From Croceivirga lutea (lineage in GTDB: Bacteria > Bacteroidota > Bacteroidia > Flavobacteriales > Flavobacteriaceae): 64,000 nucleotides of DNA. A program made the position numbers and the translations under genes. Below, piece after piece: positions 23,799 to 62,269 of this stretch. Each line of letters opens with the position of its first letter. The first letter of the stretch is position 1. The stretch lies in the NCBI RefSeq assembly GCF_014235875.1, contig NZ_JACJUK010000001.1:248001-312000 (forward strand). The letters run 5' to 3'. The notes beneath the pieces are model-generated. The model saw only the letters and a program-made list of their open reading frames with translations, was not told the origin of the DNA and made no database searches.

Positions 23799-25019
23799 TT
23801 ACGCCAACTCTTTTTGCTTGTCAAGAATGTTTAATTTTTGCATGCAAGATTTCATTCTTTTATAAGTATCAGTAATATCATGGTCTAAACCAATTGAAAA
23901 ACGAATTAAACCTGTAGAAAGTCCCATCGTTTCTTGTTCCTCTAAAGGTATTTCAGATGAAGTTGAAGTACCAGGAGCGCTAAATAGCGTTTTATAGAAA
24001 CCAAGACTTACTGCTAAATAGCCTAAATTTTCTTTTTGTAATAACTCCATTAAACTGTTGGCTTTTTCTAGAGAACCCACATCTATGGTTAATAGCCCAC
24101 CAAAGCCAAATTCTTCATTCATTTGCTTTTTTAAAGTCTCATGACCAGGATGAGAAGGCAAACCAGGATAAACAACTTTTAGGCCATCTTTTTCAAAATG
24201 TTGTGCAAGATAATAGGCATTATCACTGTGCTTTTTCATGCGTATATGTAAGGTACGCATATTTTTGAGTATAGATGCAGCACGCAGACTATCAAGCGTA
24301 CTTCCAAACAACATACCGGCACCATCATTAACATCCTTAAGACTCAAACAAAAATCAGTTGAAGCACAAACAGCGCCAGCCACACAATCACTAGTGCCAT
24401 TAATAAACTTAGTTAGGCTGTGAATTACAATATCTGCTCCCAATTCTGCGGGAGATATGTTTGAAGGCGAAAAGGTATTATCTACCACCAAAGGAATGTT
24501 ATGTTTTTTAGCAAGAATAGCTAATGCTTCAATATCTGCTACTTCTAACAACGGGTTACTAACTGCCTCGCAATAAATAAGTTTAGTGTTTTCAGTGATG
24601 GCCGCTTCAACTACAGATAGTTTGGTAATATCAACAAAACTAGTTTCTATATTAAGTTTAGGCAGAAAGTTTTTAAATAAGGCATAAGTTCCTCCGTAAA
24701 TAGTTCTGCTAGAAACTATATGTTCATTAGCATTACACAACTGCATAACTACAGCGCTGATTGCACCCATTCCGCTGGCATAAACATTTGCGCTTTCAGT
24801 GTTTTCTAAAGCTGCCATTGCTTCACCCAAATATAAATTAGAGGGTGAGGAATGTCTGCTGTAGAGATAGCAGCCTTCAGTATTACCTTCAAAAGTATCA
24901 AACATAGTTTTTGCTGATAAAAAGGTATATGTAGATGAATCAGAAATAGAGGGATTAACCCCACCAAATTCACCAAAATAATGTAAATCTTGTACCGATT
25001 GTGCTGCTTTGCTTTTCAT
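23799..25019 (-). CDS. Cys/Met metabolism PLP-dependent enzyme (methionine gamma-lyase-like)
   Basis: A 406-residue gamma-family PLP enzyme. PLP Lys204 is in VIHSLTKFINGTSDCVAGA, Asp180 in VVDNTFSPSN, and the phosphate-binding region is YLYSRHSSPSN. Members include methionine gamma-lyase, cystathionine gamma-lyase/synthase and O-acetylhomoserine sulfhydrylase. The segment that in classical methionine gamma-lyase carries a reactive Cys (YGCT) reads IYGGTYAL here, so that exact activity is not assured. It is divergent from an Lrp-family gene 156 bases away, the common arrangement for Lrp-controlled amino-acid catabolism. Confidence 0.85.
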   Translation of the reverse strand: MKSKAAQSVQDLHYFGEFGGVNPSISDSSTYTFLSAKTMFDTFEGNTEGCYLYSRHSSPSNLYLGEAMAALENTESANVYASGMGAISAVVMQLCNANEHIVSSRTIYGGTYALFKNFLPKLNIETSFVDITKLSVVEAAITENTKLIYCEAVSNPLLEVADIEALAILAKKHNIPLVVDNTFSPSNISPAELGADIVIHSLTKFINGTSDCVAGAVCASTDFCLSLKDVNDGAGMLFGSTLDSLRAASILKNMRTLHIRMKKHSDNAYYLAQHFEKDGLKVVYPGLPSHPGHETLKKQMNEEFGFGGLLTIDVGSLEKANSLMELLQKENLGYLAVSLGFYKTLFSAPGTSTSSEIPLEEQETMGLSTGLIRFSIGLDHDITDTYKRMKSCMQKLNILDKQKELA

Positions 25020-25175: not shown

Positions 25176-25637
25176 ATGCGTTTAGATAAGATTGACAAAA
25201 GGCTACTCAACCTATTACAGGAAGATTGCAAACGAACCACTAAAGCATATGCGCTAGCATTAGAATTATCTACTACGGCGGTTTTTGAGCGAATTCGAAA
25301 GCTTGAAAATGGGGGATTCATAAAAAAATATGTAGCCTTACTAGACAATAGCATGGTACAAAAAGACTTTACTGTTTTTTGTCAAGTAAGATTAGTACAA
25401 CATACCAAGCAAAATATTCTTCGTTTTGAAAAACAAATTCAACAATTACAAGAGGTTTCTAATTGCCATCATGTAAGTGGTGATTACGATTATATTTTAA
25501 CCATTAATGTAAAAGACATGAAGGCTTATAGGGAGTTTATGGTAAATAAGCTTACAGCAATAGACCAGATTGGAAGTACACAAAGTTCTTTTTCTATTGA
25601 TGTTATAAAATCAACAACCCAATTTGTTTTAGAGTAG
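25176..25637 (+). CDS. Lrp/AsnC-family transcriptional regulator
   Basis: A 153-residue feast/famine regulator. The N-terminal HTH (~1-60) starts MRLDKIDKRLLNLLQEDCKRTTKA, and the RAM ligand-binding domain (~70-150) shows GDYDYILTINVKDMKAYREF. Its divergent placement next to the PLP Cys/Met enzyme makes that gene its likely target, with an amino acid such as methionine or a product as effector. The region between the two genes is too AT-rich to assign operator sites. Confidence 0.92.
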   Translation: MRLDKIDKRLLNLLQEDCKRTTKAYALALELSTTAVFERIRKLENGGFIKKYVALLDNSMVQKDFTVFCQVRLVQHTKQNILRFEKQIQQLQEVSNCHHVSGDYDYILTINVKDMKAYREFMVNKLTAIDQIGSTQSSFSIDVIKSTTQFVLE

Positions 25638-47895: not shown

Positions 47896-49572
47896 ATGGA
47901 ATTAAATAAATACAGTAAAAACGTTACTCAAGACCCAACACAACCTGCTGCACAAGCAATGCTTTATGCTTTAGGTTTGACTGAAGAAGACTTAAAAAAG
48001 CCCTTTATCGGAATTGGAAGTACCGGTTACGAGGGTAATCCTTGCAACATGCACTTAAATGATTTGGCTAAGCATGTAAAAGAAGGTGTACAATCTAAAG
48101 ATTTAGTAGGTCTAATATTTAATACCATTGGCGTGAGTGATGGTATTTCTATGGGTACATATGGTATGCGTTATTCTTTACCGTCTAGAGATGTTATTGC
48201 AGATTCTATGGAAACTGTTGTACAAGCCATGAATTATGATGGTTTGGTAACTGTAGTGGGCTGTGATAAAAATATGCCTGGGGCCTTAATGGGAATGATT
48301 CGTTTAAATAGACCTTCAATCTTACTTTATGGAGGTACTATTGCCTCTGGGTGCCATAACAATAAAAAATTAGATGTGGTATCTGCTTTTGAAGCTTGGG
48401 GTGAGAAGGTGGCAGGTTCAATAGATGAAAAGGAATACAAATCTGTGATTCAAAAAGCATGTCCTGGTGCAGGCGCATGTGGTGGTATGTATACGGCAAA
48501 TACTATGGCTTCAGCTATTGAAGTGTTAGGTATGTCTTTACCTTATAGTTCATCGAACCCAGCTGTAGGTTCAGAAAAAAACAATGATGGTAAAGCGGCC
48601 GGCGAAGCAATACGCTATTTAATAGAAAATGATATTAAACCGTTAGATATTATTACCAAAAAATCATTAGAAAATGCAGTGCGCTTAATCACTGTTTTAG
48701 GCGGTTCAACAAACGCAGTATTACACTTTTTAGCAATAGCTAGAGCAGCAGAGATTGATTTTACTTTGGCTGATTTTCAACGCATAAGTGATACTACACC
48801 ATTCTTAGCAGATTTAAAACCAAGTGGAAAATACTCCATGGAAGACTTACACAATGTAGGTGGTGTTCCAGGTGTTATAAAATTTATGTTAGCTAATGAT
48901 ATGTTGCATGGAGATTGTCTTACCGTTACAGGTAAAACACTTGCTGAAAACATGAAAGATGTTCCAGGCTTACATGAAGGTCAAGATGTAGTTCACGGTT
49001 TAGACAATCCAATAAAAGAGACCGGTCACTTAAGAATACTTTATGGTAATCTTGCAGAATTAGGTTCAGTAGCTAAAATCACAGGAAAAGAAGGATTACA
49101 TTTTTCTGGTCCTGCTAAGGTTTTCAATGGAGAATTTGAGGCAAATGCAGGTATCCGTGATGGATTGGTAAAAAAAGGAAATGTGGTTGTTATAAGATAT
49201 GAAGGTCCACAAGGAGGACCGGGTATGCCAGAAATGTTGAAGCCAACAGCTGCAATAATGGGTGCAGGTCTTGGTAAGGATGTTGCGCTTATTACAGATG
49301 GTAGATTCTCGGGCGGCACCCACGGTTTTGTGGTTGGCCACATTGCTCCAGAAGCACAAGAGGGCGGTAATATCGCATTTGTTGAAGATGGTGATATCAT
49401 AACAATTGATGCAGAAGCTAATACAATTTCGGTCGCAATTTCAGATGAAGAGTTAGCTAAGCGTAAATCAAGTTGGGTAGCCCCTAATTTAAAAGTTAAA
49501 AAAGGTAGTTTGTATAAATATGCTAAAACAGTTTCATCGGCCTCTAAAGGTTGTGTTACTGATGCCCTTTAA
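47896..49572 (+). CDS. ilvD: Dihydroxy-acid dehydratase
   Basis: A 558-residue Fe-S dehydratase that makes the 2-oxo acids of valine and isoleucine synthesis. Cluster and Mg motifs are present: [32 protein letters not shown] and [18 protein letters not shown]. The C-terminal [17 protein letters not shown] segment carries the catalytic Ser region. It is the first gene of ilvDBNC, with an ilvB start 11 bases after its stop. Confidence 0.97.
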
Positions 49573-49583
49573 GTAATTAGCCT

Positions 49584-51317
49584 ATGGAAACAGTAAAAGC
49601 AACAGCTAAAAAAGAAACAGCTAAAAAAAGTATGCGTATAACAGGTGCTGAAGCCGTAATTAGATGCTTATTAGCAGAGGGTGTAGACCTTATTTATGGT
49701 TACCCTGGTGGAGCTATTATGCCAGTTTATGATGAGCTTTATAAATTTCAAGATGAATTAACTCATATATTAACCCGTCATGAGCAAGGTGCTACGCATG
49801 CCGCTCAGGGTTATGCGCGAGTTAGTGGTAGAGTGGGTGTAGCTATGGCCACTTCTGGTCCAGGAGCAACAAACCTGGTAACAGGTTTAGCAGATGCTCA
49901 AATAGACTCAACGCCAATGGTGTGCATTACAGGGCAGGTAGCAAGACATCTATTAGGTTCAGATGCATTTCAAGAAACTGATATTGTTGGTATTTCAACA
50001 CCAGTTACCAAATGGAATTATCAAATAACTAGAGCAGAAGAAATACCAGAAATTTTAGCTAAAGCGTTTTATATAGCTAAATCTGGTAGGCCTGGACCAG
50101 TATTAATTGATATAACAAAAAATGCACAGTTTGATGAGTTAGATTTTGACTACAAAAAGTGCACTGGAGTACGTAGTTATAAGCCAGTTCCAAAACCAGA
50201 TAATAACGCTATTGCTAAAGCGGCAGAACTTATAAACAAGGCTAAGAAACCTTATGTAATTTGGGGTCAAGGTGTTATTCTTGGAGAAGCCGAAGAGGAA
50301 CTTAAAGCGTTAATTGAAAAAACGGGTATACCTGCTGCATGGACTATCATGGGTGAATCTGCGATTCCTACCGAACATCCCTTAAATGTGGGTATGGTTG
50401 GTATGCATGGCAATTACGGACCAAATGTTCTAACAAACGAATGTGATTTGTTACTAGCAATTGGTATGCGATTTGATGACCGAGTTACGGGTGACTTAAA
50501 TACGTATGCTAAACAGGCTAAAATTGTACATTTTGAAATAGACCCAGCTGAAATCAATAAAAATGTAAAAGTTGATGTTGCCGTTTTAGGTAACGCAAAA
50601 GAAACATTAGCTGAAATACTACCATTAGTAGACAAGAATTCACACGAAGCCTGGCTTCAAGAATTTGCAAAAAAACATCAAGAGGAGTATGATGTTGTAA
50701 TTAAAAATGATATTACCCCTACAAAACCTGGCTTAACCATGGGTGAGGTTATTGAAGAAGTTAATAAAGCTTCGGGCCAAAAAGCGGTAATTGTTACAGA
50801 TGTAGGACAGCACCAAATGGTTGCCTGTAGATATGCTAAGTTTAAAGAAAGTAAGAGTAACATTACTTCTGGTGGTTTAGGAACTATGGGCTTTGCCTTA
50901 CCTGCTGCCATTGGCGCAAAACAAGGAGCTCCTGACCGCGAAGTTGTAGCCGTAATTGGTGATGGGGGTTATCAAATGACTATTCAAGAGTTAGGTGTTA
51001 TATTTCAACATCAAATTCCAGTTAAAATTTTAGTCTTAAACAATGATTTTTTAGGAATGGTTAGACAATGGCAGCAACTATTTTTTGAAAAAAGATACGC
51101 TTCTACTGTGATGACGAATCCAGACTTTGTAAAAATTGCTGAGGGCTATCATATTAAAGCCAATAGCGTTTCAGAAAGAAAAGACCTAGCAGCCGCTGTA
51201 AAAGAAATGATAGACTTTGAGGGTCCATACTTTTTAGAAGTAAAGGTTGAAAAAGAAGATAACGTATTTCCAATGATTCCTTCTGGAGCATCAGTTTCAG
51301 ATATTAGATTGAAATAA
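49584..51317 (+). CDS. ilvB: Acetolactate synthase large (catalytic) subunit
   Basis: A 577-residue ThDP/FAD enzyme that condenses two pyruvates (valine/leucine branch) or pyruvate with 2-oxobutyrate (isoleucine branch). N-terminal ThDP-pyrimidine domain with GYPGGAIMPVYDEL and the catalytic Glu in RHEQGATHAAQGYAR. Central FAD domain. C-terminal ThDP-diphosphate domain with GDGGYQMTIQELG ... NNDFLGMVRQWQ. A short Lys/Thr-rich leader (METVKATAKKETAKKS) precedes the core. Confidence 0.97.
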   Translation: METVKATAKKETAKKSMRITGAEAVIRCLLAEGVDLIYGYPGGAIMPVYDELYKFQDELTHILTRHEQGATHAAQGYARVSGRVGVAMATSGPGATNLVTGLADAQIDSTPMVCITGQVARHLLGSDAFQETDIVGISTPVTKWNYQITRAEEIPEILAKAFYIAKSGRPGPVLIDITKNAQFDELDFDYKKCTGVRSYKPVPKPDNNAIAKAAELINKAKKPYVIWGQGVILGEAEEELKALIEKTGIPAAWTIMGESAIPTEHPLNVGMVGMHGNYGPNVLTNECDLLLAIGMRFDDRVTGDLNTYAKQAKIVHFEIDPAEINKNVKVDVAVLGNAKETLAEILPLVDKNSHEAWLQEFAKKHQEEYDVVIKNDITPTKPGLTMGEVIEEVNKASGQKAVIVTDVGQHQMVACRYAKFKESKSNITSGGLGTMGFALPAAIGAKQGAPDREVVAVIGDGGYQMTIQELGVIFQHQIPVKILVLNNDFLGMVRQWQQLFFEKRYASTVMTNPDFVKIAEGYHIKANSVSERKDLAAAVKEMIDFEGPYFLEVKVEKEDNVFPMIPSGASVSDIRLK

Positions 51318-51324
51318 GAACTAC

Positions 51325-51858
51325 ATGGATAAGAAAATATTTACCATCTCGGTTTATTCAGAAAATAATGTGGGTTTACTTAACCGTATTTCAGGAATAT
51401 TCCTAAAGAGACACATCAATATAGAAAGTCTAAATGTTTCTAAGTCAGAAATTGACCAAGTTTCAAAATTTACCATTGTAGTCAATACAACAGAGGATTG
51501 GGTAAAACGTATTGTACAGCAAATTGAAAAGCAGATAGAGGTTATAAAAGCGTATTATCACACAGATGAAGAAACTATTTTTCAAGAAACCGCATTGTTT
51601 AAAATAAGTTCTGATTTACTTTTTGATGAACCTTTAATTCAGAATGCAATCAGAGAAAGTAATTCAAAAATAGTTACCGTACACAGAGATTTTTTTGTTT
51701 TGGCAAAAACTGCGCAAAGAAAAGAAATTGAGGCAATGCATGATTTGCTTGCGCCTTATGGAATTATGCAATTTGTACGTTCTGGTAGAATTGCGGTATC
51801 AAAAGAGGCCATGCTAATTTCTGAAATGTTAGAAGAATTTCATAACAATAATAAATAA
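51325..51858 (+). CDS. ilvN: Acetolactate synthase small (regulatory) subunit
   Basis: A 177-residue ACT-domain subunit that activates the catalytic subunit and carries valine feedback inhibition. The N-terminal ACT domain shows FTISVYSENNVGLLNRISGIF and HINIESLNVS; the C-terminal domain contains EAMHDLLAPYGIMQFVRSGR. It starts seven bases after ilvB and is followed 28 bases later by ilvC. Confidence 0.95.
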   Translation: MDKKIFTISVYSENNVGLLNRISGIFLKRHINIESLNVSKSEIDQVSKFTIVVNTTEDWVKRIVQQIEKQIEVIKAYYHTDEETIFQETALFKISSDLLFDEPLIQNAIRESNSKIVTVHRDFFVLAKTAQRKEIEAMHDLLAPYGIMQFVRSGRIAVSKEAMLISEMLEEFHNNNK

Positions 51859-51886
51859 CTACTAATCGAGTATAAACACTTTTAAA

Positions 51887-53362
51887 ATGACAAATTACTT
51901 CAATACACTATCACTTAGAGACCAATTACAGCAATTGGGAAAATGTAGATTTATGGATCCAAGTGAGTTTACAGATGGTGTTCAAGCTTTGAAGGGTAAA
52001 AAAATTGTAATTGTAGGTTGTGGAGCCCAAGGTTTAAACCAAGGTTTAAATATGAGAGATTCTGGTTTAGATATCTCTTATACTCTTCGTGAAGCAGCTA
52101 TTAAAGAACAAAGACAATCCTATAAAAATGCAAAGGAAAACAATTTTAATGTAGGCACTTATGAAGAGTTAATACCAACTGCAGATGTAGTTATCAATCT
52201 AACCCCAGATAAGCAGCATACAAATGTGGTAAAAGCAGTTATGCCTTTAATGAAAAAAGGAGCAACGCTAACGTATTCTCATGGTTTTAATATTGTGGAA
52301 GAAGGTATGCAAATACGTGAAGACCTTACTGTAATTATGGTTGCGCCTAAAAGCCCAGGTTCTGAGGTGAGAGAAGAATACAAAAGAGGTTTTGGCGTGC
52401 CAACCTTAATTGCAGTACACCCAGAAAATGACCCAGAAGGTAAAGGGTTAGCGCAAGCTAAAGCATACGCTGCCGGCACAGGTGGTGATAGAGCGGGAGT
52501 ATTAGAATCTTCGTTTGTGGCTGAAGTAAAATCAGATTTAATGGGTGAACAAACTATTCTTTGTGGTTTGTTACAAACGGGTTCTATTTTAAGCTTTGAT
52601 TTAATGGTAGAAAAGGGTATTGAACCAGGCTATGCCTCAAAATTAATTCAATACGGTTGGGAAACCATTACAGAAGGTCTTAAACAAGGTGGTATTACCA
52701 ATATGATGGACCGTCTTTCCAATCCAGCAAAAATCAAAGCTTTTGATTTAGCTGAGGAATTAAAGGTTATTATGAGACCATTATTTCAAAAGCATATGGA
52801 TGATATCATGAGTGGTCATTTTTCTAAAACGATGATGGAAGATTGGGCAAATGATGATAAAAATCTATTAACGTGGAGAGCAGAAACAGGAGAGACTAAT
52901 TTCGAGAAAACTCCAGCTGGTAATGATGATATTTCTGAACAAGAATATTATGATAACGGGGTATTAATGGTTGCTTTTGTAAAGTCTGGCGTAGAACTTG
53001 CCTTTGAAACAATGACAGAGTCAGGTATAATAGCAGAATCTGCGTATTATGAATCTTTACATGAAACTCCATTAATTGCGAATACAATAGCACGCAAGAA
53101 GCTTTTTGAAATGAATAGAGTTATTTCAGATACTGCGGAATATGGTTGCTATTTATTTGACCATGCATGTAAACCCTTATTAACCGATTTTATGAAAACC
53201 GTTGATATAGACGTTATAGGCAAAACCTATAATGAAGAGAACGATAATGGTGTAGATAACAGAAGATTAATAGCGGTGAACAAAGCGCTTAGAGAACATC
53301 CGGTTGAAATTGTAGGAGAGAGATTGCGAGCTTCAATGACAGCTATGAAGCCAATAGCATAA
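51887..53362 (+). CDS. ilvC: Ketol-acid reductoisomerase (class II)
   Basis: A 491-residue class II (long) NADPH-dependent enzyme. The N-terminal Rossmann domain has [19 protein letters not shown] and the NADPH-selecting loop [16 protein letters not shown] duplicated knotted C-terminal domain carries the Mg ligands ([17 protein letters not shown]). It converts acetolactate/acetohydroxybutyrate to the dihydroxy acids used by IlvD. A terminator directly follows, and the remains of ilvA come after that. Confidence 0.96.
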
Positions 53363-53366
53363 TAGT

Positions 53367-53398
53367 AAAAAGGCAGGTTAATCACCTGCCTTTTTTTA
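53367..53398 (+). terminator. Intrinsic terminator after ilvC
   Basis: AGGCAGGT and ACCTGCCT flank a TAATC loop and a run of seven T follows, from five bases after the ilvC stop. The ilvA scar starts right at its 3' edge, so it either lay in the ilvC-ilvA spacer before the deletion or was brought there by it. Confidence 0.9.
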
Positions 53399-53553
53399 TT
53401 CTTAGGACTAAATGATGATACTACGCATTTTAAATATTCAAAAAAGTCTAATCGAGAAGATGCACGTGCTGTGGTTGGTATTAATTCAAAAGACCTGAAG
53501 ATTTAGAACCACTCCTTAAAAGAATAAAAGAAAATAACTTTTTTGGAGACTAG
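53399..53553 (+). pseudogene. ilvA: Frameshifted C-terminal remnant of ilvA (threonine ammonia-lyase)
   Basis: About 52 codons of the C-terminal ACT-like regulatory region of threonine deaminase survive. Reading FLGLNDDTTHFKYSKKSN then REDARAVVGINSKDL, it parallels LGPNDDITHFEYTKKN...VGIELK in Bacteroidota IlvA. The frame hits TAG at 53504; a one-base shift near 53498-53500 restores DLEPLLKRIKENNFFGD and a natural TAG stop at 53551. The PLP catalytic domain is absent. Its place after ilvC is the usual position of ilvA in flavobacterial ilvDBNCA operons. So this locus cannot make threonine deaminase. Confidence 0.8.
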
Positions 53554-53620
53554 TTAAATAACAAACCAGATTTGTTTCAATATCTAATTTAATTACAAAG
53601 AACACACTAGAACTCAAAAT

Positions 53621-55210
53621 ATGACAACAACAAATCAAATTCCAGAAGAGTTTCAAATAACGGCATTAAAACATCAGAAACATTATCTCGTAAATGGAAA
53701 ATTAGAAGAATGGAATGGTGAAACATCAGAAGTTATTTCTACCATATCATCTACAGAAGAGTACAAACATACAGTATTAGGTAGCATTCCTACCATGGGA
53801 GAAAAAGAAGCTATGAAGGCCTTAGATGCTGCACTTTCAGCTTATGACCAAGGTCAAGGTCTTTGGCCTACAATGAAGGTAAAAGACCGTATTGAGTGTA
53901 TGGAGAACTTTGTTAAGAAAATGGAGTCTAAGCGTGAAGAGGTGGTAAAGTTATTAATGTGGGAAATTGGCAAAAACAAGCCTGATTCTTACAAAGAGTT
54001 TGATAGAACAGTGGAATACATCTACGATACCATTGAAGAATACAAAGAGCTTGACAGAAGCTCTGCAAAATTTCAAAAACATGCGGGCGTTTACGCACAC
54101 ATACGCAGAGGCCCATTAGGTGTTGTGTTGTGTTTAGGGCCTTACAACTATCCATTAAATGAGACTTTTGCCTTGTTAATCCCAGCTATAATAATGGGGA
54201 ACACCACTATTTTTAAACCAGCTAAACATGGCGTATTACTCATAACCCCATTACTAGAAGCATTTCAGTCTAGTTTTCCTAAAGGAGTAGTAAACATCAT
54301 TTTTGGTAGAGGTAGGGCTGTAGCAGCACCTATTATGCAAACTGGTAAAGTTGATGTCTTGGCATTAATAGGCAACAGCAAATCAGCAAACGCGCTACAA
54401 GAACAACACCCAAAAAGTAACCGTTTACGTTTGGTACTAGGATTAGAAGCAAAGAATCCAGCTATTATCTTACCAGATGCAGATATGGATTTAACCATTA
54501 AAGAAGTAATAGCGGGAACAACTTCATTTAATGGGCAGCGTTGTACAGCTTTAAAAGTTGTTTACGTACATGATGATGTAAAAGACGAATTTTTAGAAAA
54601 GTATTCCAAAGCCATTGATGCATTAAAATTTGGTAATCCTTGGGATGAAGGTGCGCAACTAACCCCTTTGCCAGAACCAGATAAGCCAGATTATATTCAA
54701 GAGTTAATAGATGATGCGTTACAAAAAGGCGCACAAATCAAGAATGAAAAAGGAGGTTGGCGAAGCGATAATTATATCTGGCCAGCAGTATTATACCCCG
54801 TTTCTAAAGAAATGAGGGTTTATACTGAAGAGCAATTTGGTCCTGTTGTACCAGTTTTATCTTTTAGTGATATTTCAGAGCCTTTAGACGATATGGCAGA
54901 ATCAAATTACGGGCAGCAGGTAAGTTTATTTGGTAAAGATGTATATACTTTATCTCCGCTAATAGATACACTTGCAAATTTAGTTTGTAGGGTAAATTTA
55001 AATAGTTCTTGTCAACGCGGACCAGATGTGTATCCATTTACCGGTAGAAAAGATTCGGCGCAAGCTACATTAAGCGTGCATGATGCTTTACGTTCTTTTT
55101 CAATTAGAACTTTTGTAGCATTTAAAGACAATGATATTAATAATGAGACTATTGAAAATCTTTTAGACGCTAAAGCAAGTAATTTTTTAAGTACAGATTA
55201 CATTTTGTAG
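53621..55210 (+). CDS. gapN: Aldehyde dehydrogenase, GapN-type (NADP-dependent non-phosphorylating G3P dehydrogenase)
   Basis: A 529-residue ALDH-superfamily enzyme resembling GapN, which oxidises glyceraldehyde-3-phosphate directly to 3-phosphoglycerate with NADP+. Catalytic Cys308 in [10 protein letters not shown] and general-base Glu in [12 protein letters not shown]; the oxyanion Asn is in [33 protein letters not shown] is the family cofactor-domain entry. The GapN call rests on overall resemblance and length, with other NADP-ALDHs possible. It starts 67 bases after the ilvA scar. Confidence 0.8.
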
Positions 55211-58691: not shown

Positions 58692-60206
58692 TTATATTAG
58701 ATTTAACATTTTTTCAGTAGCCTTTATTGCTGACACCGTTTGGTCAGAGTCCAACCCTGTAGTTACAAAATCGTTTTTTGCGGTTTTCCAAGTAATCATG
58801 GTTTCACATAGGGCATCAGAAGAGCTACCAGGAGGAATTCTAACCACATAGTCTATAAGTTTGGGTAAATTAGAACCACGTTCGTCATAGATTTTATGCA
58901 AGGCATTCATGAATGCATCAAACTGTCCATCTCCTTGGGCATTACTTTCATAAACTTCTCCATTAATTTCTATAGATAGGGTAGTGGAGGGCATAAGACC
59001 TTTGGCATGCGTTAATACGTAAGATTTTATAAAAACGTTCTGTTTAAATGAACTACTGTCTAAAACATCAGAAATTATATATGGTAAATCATCTTTGGTA
59101 ACTTTTTCTTTTTTATCACCAAGTTCAATAATACGTTCAGTAACCTTTTTAACTTCTTCATCGTTTAAAGTAAGTCCAAGTTCTTGAAGGTTTTTTAGAA
59201 TATTGGCTTTACCAGATGTTTTGCCCAAAGCATATTTACGTTTTCTACCAAAACGCTCAGGCATAAGATTACTAAAATAAAGGTTGTTTTTATTATCACC
59301 ATCTGCATGAATACCAGCAGTTTGGGTAAACACATTTTCACCAACTACAGGTTTGTTCGCCGGAATTCCAAAACCAGTAAAAGTTGAAACCAACTTACTT
59401 ACTTTATAGAGAGAAGATTCTACTACCTTGGTTTCTATTTCAGGTAGAAAATCATTAATTACTGCAATAGTACTTGCTAGAGGAGCATTACCGGCACGTT
59501 CACCCATACCGTTCACCGTAAGGTGAAGGCCGTGCGCACCTGCCTTTAGTGATTCCATTACATTGCTCACACTCAAATCATAGTCATTATGACCATGAAA
59601 ATCAAAATGAGTATTAGGATATCGTTTAACGATTTTATCAATATACTCAAAAGTTTCAGCTGGTGTTAATATTCCTAAAGTATCTGGTAACAAAACCCTT
59701 TTTATGGGTTGTTGCGTAAGAAAATCTAAAAATTGAAATACATATTCTTGAGAATTACGCATGCCATTACTCCAGTCTTCTAAATATACATTTGTAATAA
59801 ATCCTTCGGACTTTGCTAGGGAAATACTTTTAGCTATTTCTGCAAAATGTTCTTCTGGAGTTTTACGTAGTTGATGTGTTAAATGATTGAGCGAGCCTTT
59901 GGTTAGTAGATTTTGAACTTTAGCACCAGCTTCTTTCATCCATTGAATTGAAGCGCCACCATCAACAAAGGTGAGTACTTCTACTTGGTGTAAACAATCT
60001 ACTTCTTGAGCCCATTTTGTAATATTTTTTACAGCCTTAAACTCTCCCTCAGAAACTCGTGCAGAAGCAACTTCGATGCGGTCAACCTTTAATTCTTCTA
60101 ATAAAAGTTTAGCTAGGGTTAACTTTTCTGAAGCTGTAAAAGAAACCCCAGAGGTTTGTTCACCATCTCTAAGGGTGGTATCCATTATTTCAATGGTTCT
60201 CGACAT
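58692..60206 (-). CDS. leuA/cimA: Alpha-isopropylmalate synthase family enzyme (LeuA family), likely (R)-citramalate synthase (CimA type)
   Basis: A 504-residue acyl-CoA:2-oxoacid condensing enzyme. TIM barrel with MDTTLRDGEQTSGVSF (Arg13, Asp14), Glu143 in VYLEDWSNGMRNS, FDFHGHNDYDLSVSN metal His residues and GERAGNAPLAS. The C-terminal LeuA regulatory domain (~385-504) ends RIPPGSSSDALCET. From memory it is close to Leptospira CimA over its full length, and Leu78, Leu101 and Tyr141 align with the residues (Leu81, Leu104, Tyr144) described as lining that enzyme's pyruvate pocket. It would then condense pyruvate with acetyl-CoA for isoleucine. It would normally be annotated 2-isopropylmalate synthase from its leuCDB context. 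The family is certain; substrate choice is inferred. Confidence 0.8.
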   Translation of the reverse strand: MSRTIEIMDTTLRDGEQTSGVSFTASEKLTLAKLLLEELKVDRIEVASARVSEGEFKAVKNITKWAQEVDCLHQVEVLTFVDGGASIQWMKEAGAKVQNLLTKGSLNHLTHQLRKTPEEHFAEIAKSISLAKSEGFITNVYLEDWSNGMRNSQEYVFQFLDFLTQQPIKRVLLPDTLGILTPAETFEYIDKIVKRYPNTHFDFHGHNDYDLSVSNVMESLKAGAHGLHLTVNGMGERAGNAPLASTIAVINDFLPEIETKVVESSLYKVSKLVSTFTGFGIPANKPVVGENVFTQTAGIHADGDNKNNLYFSNLMPERFGRKRKYALGKTSGKANILKNLQELGLTLNDEEVKKVTERIIELGDKKEKVTKDDLPYIISDVLDSSSFKQNVFIKSYVLTHAKGLMPSTTLSIEINGEVYESNAQGDGQFDAFMNALHKIYDERGSNLPKLIDYVVRIPPGSSSDALCETMITWKTAKNDFVTTGLDSDQTVSAIKATEKMLNLI

Positions 60207-60218
60207 TTTTTTATGTAA

Positions 60219-60815
60219 TTAGAAAGGACGCGTTTCTACGAAATCTATGATGTCTTCTTTTAAATTTAATAGGTAATCAATATCATCAAACCCGTTTAAC
60301 ATATTACCTTTTTTATACGCATTAATACCAAAAGTCTCAAACTCTCCGGTACTTAGAATGGTAAAGGTTTGCTCTTGTAAATCAACTTTAAATTCGGTAT
60401 TTGGGTCAGCTTCAATAGCCTTAAAAATTTTCTCTAAAAACTCAGGACTTATTTGAACCGGGAGTACACCTACATTTAAACAATTGTTTCTAAAGATATC
60501 TGCAAAAAAGCTAGATACTACACAACGAAACCCATAATCATAAACAGCCCATGCAGCATGTTCACGAGAAGAACCAGAACCAAAGTTTTTGCCACCTACT
60601 AAAATTTTACCACTGTAAATAGGGTTGTTTAAAACAAATTGTTCTTTAGGTGAATTGTCAGAATTATACCGCCAATCTCTAAAAAGATTATCACCAAACC
60701 CTTTACGCTCAGTTGCTTTTAAAAAACGAGCTGGAATTATTTGGTCAGTATCTACGTTTTCTATAGGTAACGGTACAGCCGTTGAAGTTAATATGTCGAA
60801 TTTATCGTATGCCAT
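60219..60815 (-). CDS. leuD: 3-isopropylmalate dehydratase small subunit
   Basis: A 198-residue swivel-domain subunit of the isopropylmalate (and citramalate) isomerase with LeuC. The start is set at 60815 ([32 protein letters not shown]), which is the usual LeuD N-terminus; the upstream ATG at 60860 adds 15 residues unlike the family. [23 protein letters not shown] is the substrate-specificity loop. It lies 12 bases before the synthase gene. Confidence 0.95.
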
Positions 60816-60862
60816 TTTTACTTTTTTTGTGTTTCCTAAAATGAAGGAAATTAAAATCAATT

Positions 60863-62269
60863 TTAAGCGGTTTCTAACTGCATTAATTCTCTAGGGTCAG
60901 TTACCTTGCCAGTTACAGCAGCAGCAGCAGCAACTAACGGACTAGCTAATAAGGTTCTCGCTCCTGGGCCTTGTCTACCTTCAAAATTTCGGTTACTAGT
61001 ACTTACCGCATATTTTCCTGCGGGTACTTTATCATCGTTCATAGCTAGGCATGCAGAACAACCCGGTTCTCTTAATTCAAAACCTGCTTCGTTTAATATT
61101 TCTAATATACCTTCTTCTTTAATTGCTGTTTCAACTTGGTGTGAACCAGGAACCAACCAAGCAGTTACATTAGCTGCTTTTTTTCTACCTTTTATTATAG
61201 AAGCAAATGCTCTAAAATCTTCTATTCTACCATTAGTACAACTACCTAAGAAGACAAAATCAATAGGTTTTCCTATCATTTGGTCTCCCTCACTAAAATC
61301 CATATACGCTAAGGACTTTTTATAGGTTTGAGCACCAGAACCTTCACCAGCGGTTGGAATTGAATTTGAAATACCAAAGCCCATACCAGGGTTAGTACCA
61401 TAAGTAATCATTGGTTCAATATTAGCGGCATCAAAGGTTAACTCTTTATCAAAATCAGCGTCATCTTCTGAATATAAGGTTTCCCAATAATTCATTGCTT
61501 TATCCCAATCGGCACCTTTAGGTGCAAATTCTCTGCCTTTTACATAGTCAAACGTTTTCTCATCTGGGGCAATCATTCCTCCACGAGCTCCCATTTCAAT
61601 ACTTAAGTTACATACCGTCATACGGCCTTCCATTGACATATTTTTGAATACATCTCCTGCATATTCAACAAAGTATCCAGTTGCGCCAGATGTGGTTAAT
61701 TGCGAAATAATATATAGAGCAACGTCTTTAGGAGTTACACCAAATTGCAATTCGCCATTTACGTTAATACGCATACTGCGCGGTTTTGGTTGCATTATAC
61801 ATTGGCTAGCTAACACCATTTCTACCTCAGAAGTTCCAATACCAAAGGCAATTGCTCCAAAAGCACCGTGAGTAGAGGTGTGCGAATCACCACAAACAAT
61901 AGTGGCTCCAGGTAAGGTTATACCATTTTCTGGACCAACTACGTGCACAATACCATTTTTTTCATGTCCTAATCCCCAATAGCGAATACCATGTTCATTG
62001 GCATTTTTTTCTAAAGCCGCTAACTGATTTGCAGATAATGGGTCTTTAACGGGTAAATGTTGATTAATTGTAGGCGTATTATGGTCTGCGGTAGCAAAAG
62101 TTCTATTAGGATTAAGCACCTCAATACCTCTATTTTTAATTCCTAAAAACGCAACCGGACTGGTAACTTCATGCACCAAGTGGCGGTCAATGAAAAGCAC
62201 ATCTGGTCCATTTTGTATACTTTTTACTACGTGAGAATCCCAAACCTTATCAAATAACGTTTTGCCCAT
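60863..62269 (-). CDS. leuC: 3-isopropylmalate dehydratase large subunit
   Basis: A 468-residue aconitase-family [4Fe-4S] subunit. Cluster Cys in [15 protein letters not shown] and [37 protein letters not shown] and [20 protein letters not shown] are standard. It is the first gene of the operon leuC-leuD-leuA/cimA-leuB. An exact -7 promoter element lies 27 bases upstream. Confidence 0.97.

Follow-up and report, generated by a model that had tools for sequence, protein, structure and literature searches.

A predicted Leptospira-type citramalate synthase in the leucine operon of Croceivirga lutea and its apparent alternation with threonine dehydratase in Flavobacteriaceae

The leu and ilv Operons of Croceivirga lutea

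The stretch of DNA analyzed here, referred to as the window, comprises 64,000 nucleotides of Croceivirga lutea (contig NZ_JACJUK010000001.1, positions 248,001-312,000, forward strand), and all coordinates below are positions within it. An ilv operon at 47896-53362 on the plus strand points toward a leu operon on the minus strand, and the features of both are as follows.

47896..49572, plus strand: ilvD, as we take it to be from its position and conserved synteny in relatives
49584..51317, plus strand: ilvB, acetolactate synthase large subunit (NCBIfam scan)
51325..51858, plus strand: ilvN, acetolactate synthase small subunit (NCBIfam scan)
51887..53362, plus strand: ilvC, ketol-acid reductoisomerase, last intact gene of the ilv operon (profile search)
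53371..53397, plus strand: terminator-like hairpin and T run directly 3' of ilvC (read by eye)
53399..53589, plus strand: ilvA relic in two reading frames, with stops, 75-77% identity
57581..58636, minus strand: leuB, 3-isopropylmalate dehydrogenase, final gene of the leu operon (TIGR00169, 441.6 bits, cut-off 353.2)
58692..60206, minus strand: cimA-like gene, candidate (R)-citramalate synthase, 504 aa, ATG start, intact frame; Pfam domains HMGL-like (residues 5-273), HCS_D2 (287-366) and LeuA_dimer regulatory domain (369-503)
60219..60860, minus strand: leuD, isomerase small subunit, listed from TTG (passes NCBIfam cut-off)
60863..62269, minus strand: leuC, isomerase large subunit (passes NCBIfam cut-off)

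The leu operon is compact, in the order leuC-leuD-[cimA-like]-leuB, with the cimA-like gene third. An earlier reading of the window, made from the sequence only, had placed an open reading frame at 58692-60206 and grouped it with leuC, leuD and leuB; the frame is real, and its neighbors exceed their NCBIfam cut-offs. The true start of leuD is probably an ATG near 60815, since alignments with genus mates begin only at residue 12-16.

It was also proposed that ilvA had been lost from the ilv operon, which the relic at 53399-53589 confirms. Of the 421 residues of IlvA in a genus mate, only 358-385 and 387-421 are represented in this relic (tblastn E 3.8e-19), and the IlvA model TIGR02079 gives a short match immediately after ilvC. 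Because this C-terminal remnant sits after ilvC, ilvA was evidently once present in the genome and then decayed. Elsewhere in the genome (3.45 Mb, 19 contigs, 99.95% complete) no match to TIGR02079 above its cut-off was found, the best being a short dehydratase discussed below (L006) at 186 bits vs. 441; the absence of IlvA is judged from this search and the list of PALP-family genes. In all five genomes of the genus that have ilvA, the gene is flanked by ilvC and an aldehyde dehydrogenase gene. Six genus genomes are without it, among which C. lutea (G000) keeps the C-terminal relic and two others N- and C-terminal pieces (G151, G152), while no relic was detected in G154, G157, and G158. Among the 25 loci of other genera with a cimA-like gene and no ilvA (cimA-only), a relic was found in one (G134). 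The aldehyde dehydrogenase gene itself lies at 53621-55210 (+) in the window, where its best model gives 227 bits with a cut-off of 650; a homolog is found downstream of ilvC in 19 of the 25 cimA-only loci of other genera, and within the genus it follows ilvC or ilvA.

A Leptospira-Type Condensing Enzyme

Each of the three Pfam domains of the cimA-like protein exceeds its gathering score, and the top NCBIfam model is NF042433 (Leptospira citramalate synthase), at 670.3 bits over residues 4-504. The highest score for any LeuA model is 332.9 bits vs. a cut-off of 517, the LeuA model TIGR00973 gives 280 bits vs. 598.7, and TIGR00977, another citramalate synthase family that we presume to be of the Geobacter kind, gives 172.1 bits vs. 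450. The closest solved structure in a PDB search is 3ble (E 1.7e-118), the core of the Leptospira interrogans enzyme (LiCMS), to which the window protein is 54.2% identical over 319 aligned residues, vs. 26.2% to the LeuA of its own genome and 28.5-31.0% to three solved LeuA structures. For the C-terminal domain the sole credible PDB match is 3f6g/3f6h (E 3.5e-28), titled “alpha-isopropylmalate synthase” and taken by us to be the regulatory domain of Leptospira CimA; the other match, 4p99 (E 0.0026), looks like a repeat artefact. The full-length likeness to Leptospira CimA that had been put forward from the sequence thus holds up.

NF042433 carries a curated cut-off of 950 bits, which the window protein does not reach and which was attained in none of 149 Flavobacteriaceae genomes. 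At 670.3 bits the protein is therefore not filed under this NCBIfam equivalog (CitmalDyn_Leptosp) as drawn, and annotation pipelines may name such genes as leucine enzymes because they score below the NCBI cut-off for CimA. Should the genes be misnamed, many Bacteroidota could be mistaken in metabolic reconstructions for isoleucine auxotrophs or for users of a threonine route.

Six residues had been singled out beforehand, and R13, D14, L78, L101, Y141, and E143 do match R, D, L, L, Y, and E of 3ble with a constant shift; that the shift amounts to three relative to the published numbering is our assumption, as is the equation of L78, L101, and Y141 with what we take to be the LiCMS pyruvate pocket (Leu81, Leu104, and Tyr144). 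The six are not equally telling. R13, D14, and E143 also occur in each of the five LeuA rows used for comparison, and Y141 in the LeuA of the same genome, so that only L78 and L101, replaced in the LeuA rows by S/A/C and G/F, respectively, discriminate among the residues named. Further positions that separate CimA-like proteins from LeuA are F80, K103, N139, A301, and L309. The three pocket residues L78, L101, and Y141 are invariant in all 63 distinct family and genus sequences, which were taken at ≥90% coverage and ≥50% identity from 80 cimA-like records (including duplicates of one genome) and represent seven genus mates and 56 of the 64 family genomes with the gene, G082, G084, G088, G115, G121, G129, G139, and G140 being left out of the count. 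They are likewise retained at all 80 named loci listed from 588 pattern matches. The isoleucine site of LiCMS presumably consists of nine residues (Y430, D431, L451, Y454, I458, T464, V468, P493, and Q495), and as so assumed D431, L451, Y454, I458, and Q495 are kept in the window protein while Y430 is F, T464 is S, V468 is C, and P493 is S. Two of the three residues that we presume to govern isoleucine selectivity are among those that differ (V to C and P to S).

A tree with characterized LeuA and CimA proteins had been suggested as a check. It has 36 rows, and 28 cimA-like rows and LiCMS fall on one side of a branch with support of 100/100, the six LeuA/IPMS rows forming a separate group and the window gene lying outside the LeuA clade. 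It took in 19 of the 80 named loci and eight family or genus loci; one of the 28 cimA-like rows comes from a record titled Bacillota, and the others from the window, the family, the genus, or records titled Bacteroidota. LiCMS is nested within the cimA-like group (support 95/88), its exact inner placement being less sure on a long branch (0.89). This nesting, which concerns tree rows L244 and L246, would fit a transfer from Bacteroidota to Leptospira, as seen from one Leptospira row on that long branch. The cimA-like gene of the Bacillota-titled record, a metagenome-assembled genome (L257, JAMNXU010000032.1), is of the Bacteroidota type and branches basally in the clade, reflecting either a binning error or a transfer.

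Gene Order at Other Loci

The setting of the cimA-like gene recurs widely. Across the 80 named loci listed from 588 matches, some of them on short contigs, the neighbors include leuD in 73, leuC in 72, leuB in 69, and LeuA in 22. The same-strand order leuC-leuD-cimA-leuB is found at 67 of these 80 listed loci, and leuA-leuC-leuD-cimA-leuB at 17 of the 80, both counts describing gene order only and not spacing. In one genome read over the whole order (G064), leuA, leuC, leuD, cimA, and leuB adjoin, and at least 10 family genomes have leuA on the contig and strand of the cimA-like gene, at a distance of 3.2-3.6 kb. Two condensing enzymes flanking one LeuCD/LeuB set is the arrangement that two parallel pathways would need.

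A Separate LeuA

Three genes of the HMGL family are present in the C. lutea genome: the cimA-like gene, a LeuA, and a gene for an HMG-CoA-lyase-like protein that scores under the cut-off of NF002086. The LeuA is a 390-aa protein whose gene shares a contig with the cimA-like gene at a distance of ~68 kb, and it gives 609 bits with NF002086 vs. a cut-off of 532. The sequence-only reading had called for a genome search for a second LeuA and an intact IlvA, and had named an intact ilvA elsewhere with no second leuA as evidence against itself; what the genome holds is a LeuA above cut-off and no IlvA match above cut-off. Its suggestion that the enzyme might be bifunctional if no other LeuA existed does not arise. 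With a separate LeuA above cut-off and the cimA-like gene outside the LeuA clade, the second-LeuA and bifunctional readings were both dropped as leading explanations. The genome contains LeuCDB, IlvBN, IlvC, IlvD (by synteny), and a separate LeuA, with no IlvA match above cut-off, as a threonine-independent pathway requires.

LeuA matches across the family are short: of the 108 genomes with one, 107 show no match beyond position 405 of the 516-position profile, and only G112 extends to 510. As the matches end there, family LeuA proteins seem to be without the leucine-sensing domain.

Distribution in Flavobacteriaceae

The survey covered 149 Flavobacteriaceae genomes, one per genus, and 10 further genomes of the window's own genus. 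In the 149, the cimA-like gene is present in 64, IlvA in 85, ilvC in 114, and LeuA in 108. All 64 genomes with the cimA-like gene carry ilvC and 63 carry LeuA, the exception being an 82% complete genome (G048) without a LeuA match, and the gene occurs in none of the 35 genomes lacking ilvC. The 64 matches all span from profile position ≤7 to ≥510 of 514. Of the 114 genomes with ilvC, 38 have both entry genes, 26 the cimA-like gene only, 46 ilvA only, and four neither (Fisher p 8e-5); restricting the count to the 95 genomes that are ≥90% complete and ≤5% contaminated gives 32, 23, 38, and two, respectively (p 3.8e-5). The same mixture is seen within the genus, where two of 11 genomes have both, six the cimA-like gene only, three ilvA only, and none neither. 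Such a mixed pattern, with both genes or one or the other inside a single genus, offers a natural test bed for the replacement of routes toward one essential metabolite.

Relatedness among genomes was taken into account with a tree of IlvC, a single gene, for 122 genomes, on which 52 of 119 inner branches are poorly supported. G023 is left out of it for want of an ilvC match, and G069 and G093 because they gave no ilvC hit that qualified. On this tree ilvA requires at least 25 changes and the cimA-like gene at least 18. A Pagel-type likelihood-ratio test of correlated evolution on the 122 genomes gave 30.6 with 4 df (p 3.7e-6), and 27.1 (p 1.9e-5) after the extra genus members were removed, while short dehydratase vs. 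ilvA, run as a control, gave p 0.049. Only the test was used, not the rates, several of which lie at their bounds and at face value imply near-zero loss of the cimA-like gene while ilvA is present. The fitted rates depart from simple redundancy, in which either gene would be lost more easily with the other present, and the signal arises from a rapid exit from the state with neither gene. When pairs were drawn only from IlvC-tree branches with good support, 6-9 pairs were available and the pair test gave no significant result (median p 0.625).

The four genomes with ilvC and neither gene are of two sorts. G112 (with a short dehydratase) and G147 are 64 and 73% complete, whereas G114 and G122 are near complete (both 99%) and carry ilvC and leuA. 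G114 has a short dehydratase. G122 has an N-terminal ilvA relic directly after ilvC (L345:6602-6766) and only dehydratase-like fragments were seen in it, which makes it a candidate for isoleucine auxotrophy or for use of a different route.

Other Sources of 2-Oxobutyrate and Alternative Readings

The window genome has six PALP-family genes; NCBIfam models were applied to two of them (L006 and L009), and the remaining four were named by eye as two cysteine-synthase-like genes, one TrpB-like, and one ThrC-like. L006 is a 338-aa serine/threonine dehydratase that exceeds the cut-off of NF005147 (488 bits vs. 380). At E≤1e-100 this model matches seven of the 149 family genomes, the window genome being the only cimA-only one among them. 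Short PLP dehydratases at E≤1e-35 are found in at least 74 of 149 family genomes. Elsewhere in the window, a methionine gamma-lyase or sulfhydrylase-like PLP gene at 23799-25019 (–), below all cut-offs shown, is a possible catabolic source of 2-oxobutyrate; a small open reading frame divergent from it, at 25176-25637 (+), looks to us like an Lrp-type regulator.

These genes give rise to the alternative with the most in its favor, namely that the cimA-like protein is a citramalate synthase, yet the window organism draws its 2-oxobutyrate mainly from L006 or from methionine breakdown. L006 could deaminate threonine, a threonine deaminase (1ve5) ranks third among its PDB matches, dehydratases like it score 167-195 bits on TIGR02079 in all 11 genus members, and G114 shows an ilvC-bearing genome that has a short dehydratase and neither entry gene. 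The two closest PDB matches of L006 are, however, 1v71 (an uncharacterized protein) and 6lut (a probable serine racemase). Distribution also argues against this alternative, as among the matches listed short dehydratases occur in 57 of 114 genomes with ilvC vs. 17 of 35 without it, and in 15 of 26 cimA-only vs. 40 of 84 ilvA-bearing genomes (p 0.50). Being about equally common where ilvC is absent and not significantly commoner in cimA-only genomes, they are not distributed according to the need for isoleucine. Moreover, at E≤1e-35 the search for PLP threonine/serine dehydratases found nothing in 11 of the 26 cimA-only genomes (four of the 11 being scored so from absence among the matches listed, and two, G081 and G095, being only 66 and 83% complete), and in these 11 the cimA-like gene is the only 2-oxobutyrate candidate seen among the routes searched. 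As a general replacement for IlvA, the L006 type was rejected, since it does not track ilvA loss; as an account of the window genome alone it stays in contention, and we consider it unlikely.

Two other explanations are weaker still. A second, leucine-regulated 2-isopropylmalate synthase, complementing a short LeuA that lacks the regulatory domain, would suit a gene that sits in the leu operon and encodes a LeuA_dimer domain, and it would account for leucine feedback, which is otherwise unexplained with a 390-aa LeuA and 107 of 108 family LeuA matches ending by position 405 of 516. We find this very improbable given a best LeuA-model score of 332.9 bits for a cut-off of 517, a position outside the LeuA clade, and a pocket unlike that of LeuA at positions 78 and 101; 45 of 108 genomes with both ilvC and leuA have no cimA-like gene, and the either/or pattern with ilvA would go unexplained. 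Alternatively, the organism could be an isoleucine auxotroph in which the cimA-like gene has some other role or is being lost. The decay of ilvA in the window genome would agree with this, and the relic in G122, which has no cimA-like gene, indicates that ilvA loss without a cimA-like replacement happens. Nevertheless, ilvD, B, N, and C and leuB, C, and D are all intact frames, the 64 family matches are all near full length with an invariant pocket in the 63 sequences read, and absence of the gene from all 35 genomes lacking ilvC is what a role in branched-chain synthesis would predict. Auxotrophy is therefore hardly to be expected here.

Proposed Isoleucine Route

Judged from clade, pocket residues, operon, ilvA relic, and the either/or distribution over 149 family and 10 genus genomes, the window gene is likely a Leptospira-type (R)-citramalate synthase that would feed 2-oxobutyrate to isoleucine via LeuCDB, much as the sequence-only reading had proposed. 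The predicted CimA would condense acetyl-CoA and pyruvate to (R)-citramalate, which LeuC, LeuD, and LeuB of the same operon would carry on to 2-oxobutyrate, and IlvB/N, IlvC, and IlvD would complete the path to isoleucine. Leucine would be served by the separate short LeuA, isoleucine may exert feedback through the C-terminal domain of CimA, and the threonine route would have been lost, with ilvA left as a broken C-terminal stretch after ilvC. The presence of the cimA-like gene appears to have let this organism and many of its relatives lose the threonine-based isoleucine route.

We also lean, with less assurance, toward a wider picture in which leu operons of Bacteroidota widely carry a citramalate synthase and one LeuCDB set serves both leucine and isoleucine. 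For Flavobacteriaceae this would mean that either entry route can stand in for the other and that now one, now the other has been lost on many occasions, even within one genus, leaving several small-genome members strictly threonine-independent, and the cimA of Leptospira may derive from Bacteroidota.

Comparison With Known Systems

A search of titles and abstract openings in the open-access literature found nothing on the Flavobacteriaceae enzyme, which is weak evidence of novelty. Reconstructions of human gut genomes, in the part of the article available to us, treat CimA as an alternative to IlvA and report 317 genomes with a CimA variant, and that part holds no discussion of Flavobacteriaceae, relics, or reciprocal loss (PMC9026213). 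In the available portion of a rumen metagenome study, citramalate synthase appears as a gene-category name in a table (PMC5114307). Leptospira has separate LeuA proteins too, one of them without the regulatory domain, according to the accessible section of another paper (PMC12345160).

The window protein resembles LiCMS in clade, domain order, catalytic and pyruvate-pocket residues, and C-terminal domain. It differs in its score on the Leptospira model (670 vs. 950 bits for NF042433), in the location of its gene between leuD and leuB, and in the presumed isoleucine site, where Y430, T464, V468, and P493 are F, S, C, and S. With LeuA (TIGR00973, NF002086; 3eeg, 3rmj) it shares the superfamily, the catalytic R/D/E/H residues, and the type of operon, but it belongs to a separate clade, differs at pocket positions 78 and 101, and comes from a genome whose true LeuA is another gene. 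Citramalate synthases of the TIGR00977 type would have the same proposed reaction and pathway role, although the window protein scores 172 bits on that model vs. a cut-off of 450, far under its score on the Leptospira-type model. The enzyme type is already known, and what is notable is its occurrence in several orders of Bacteroidota together with the repeated loss of either IlvA or CimA.
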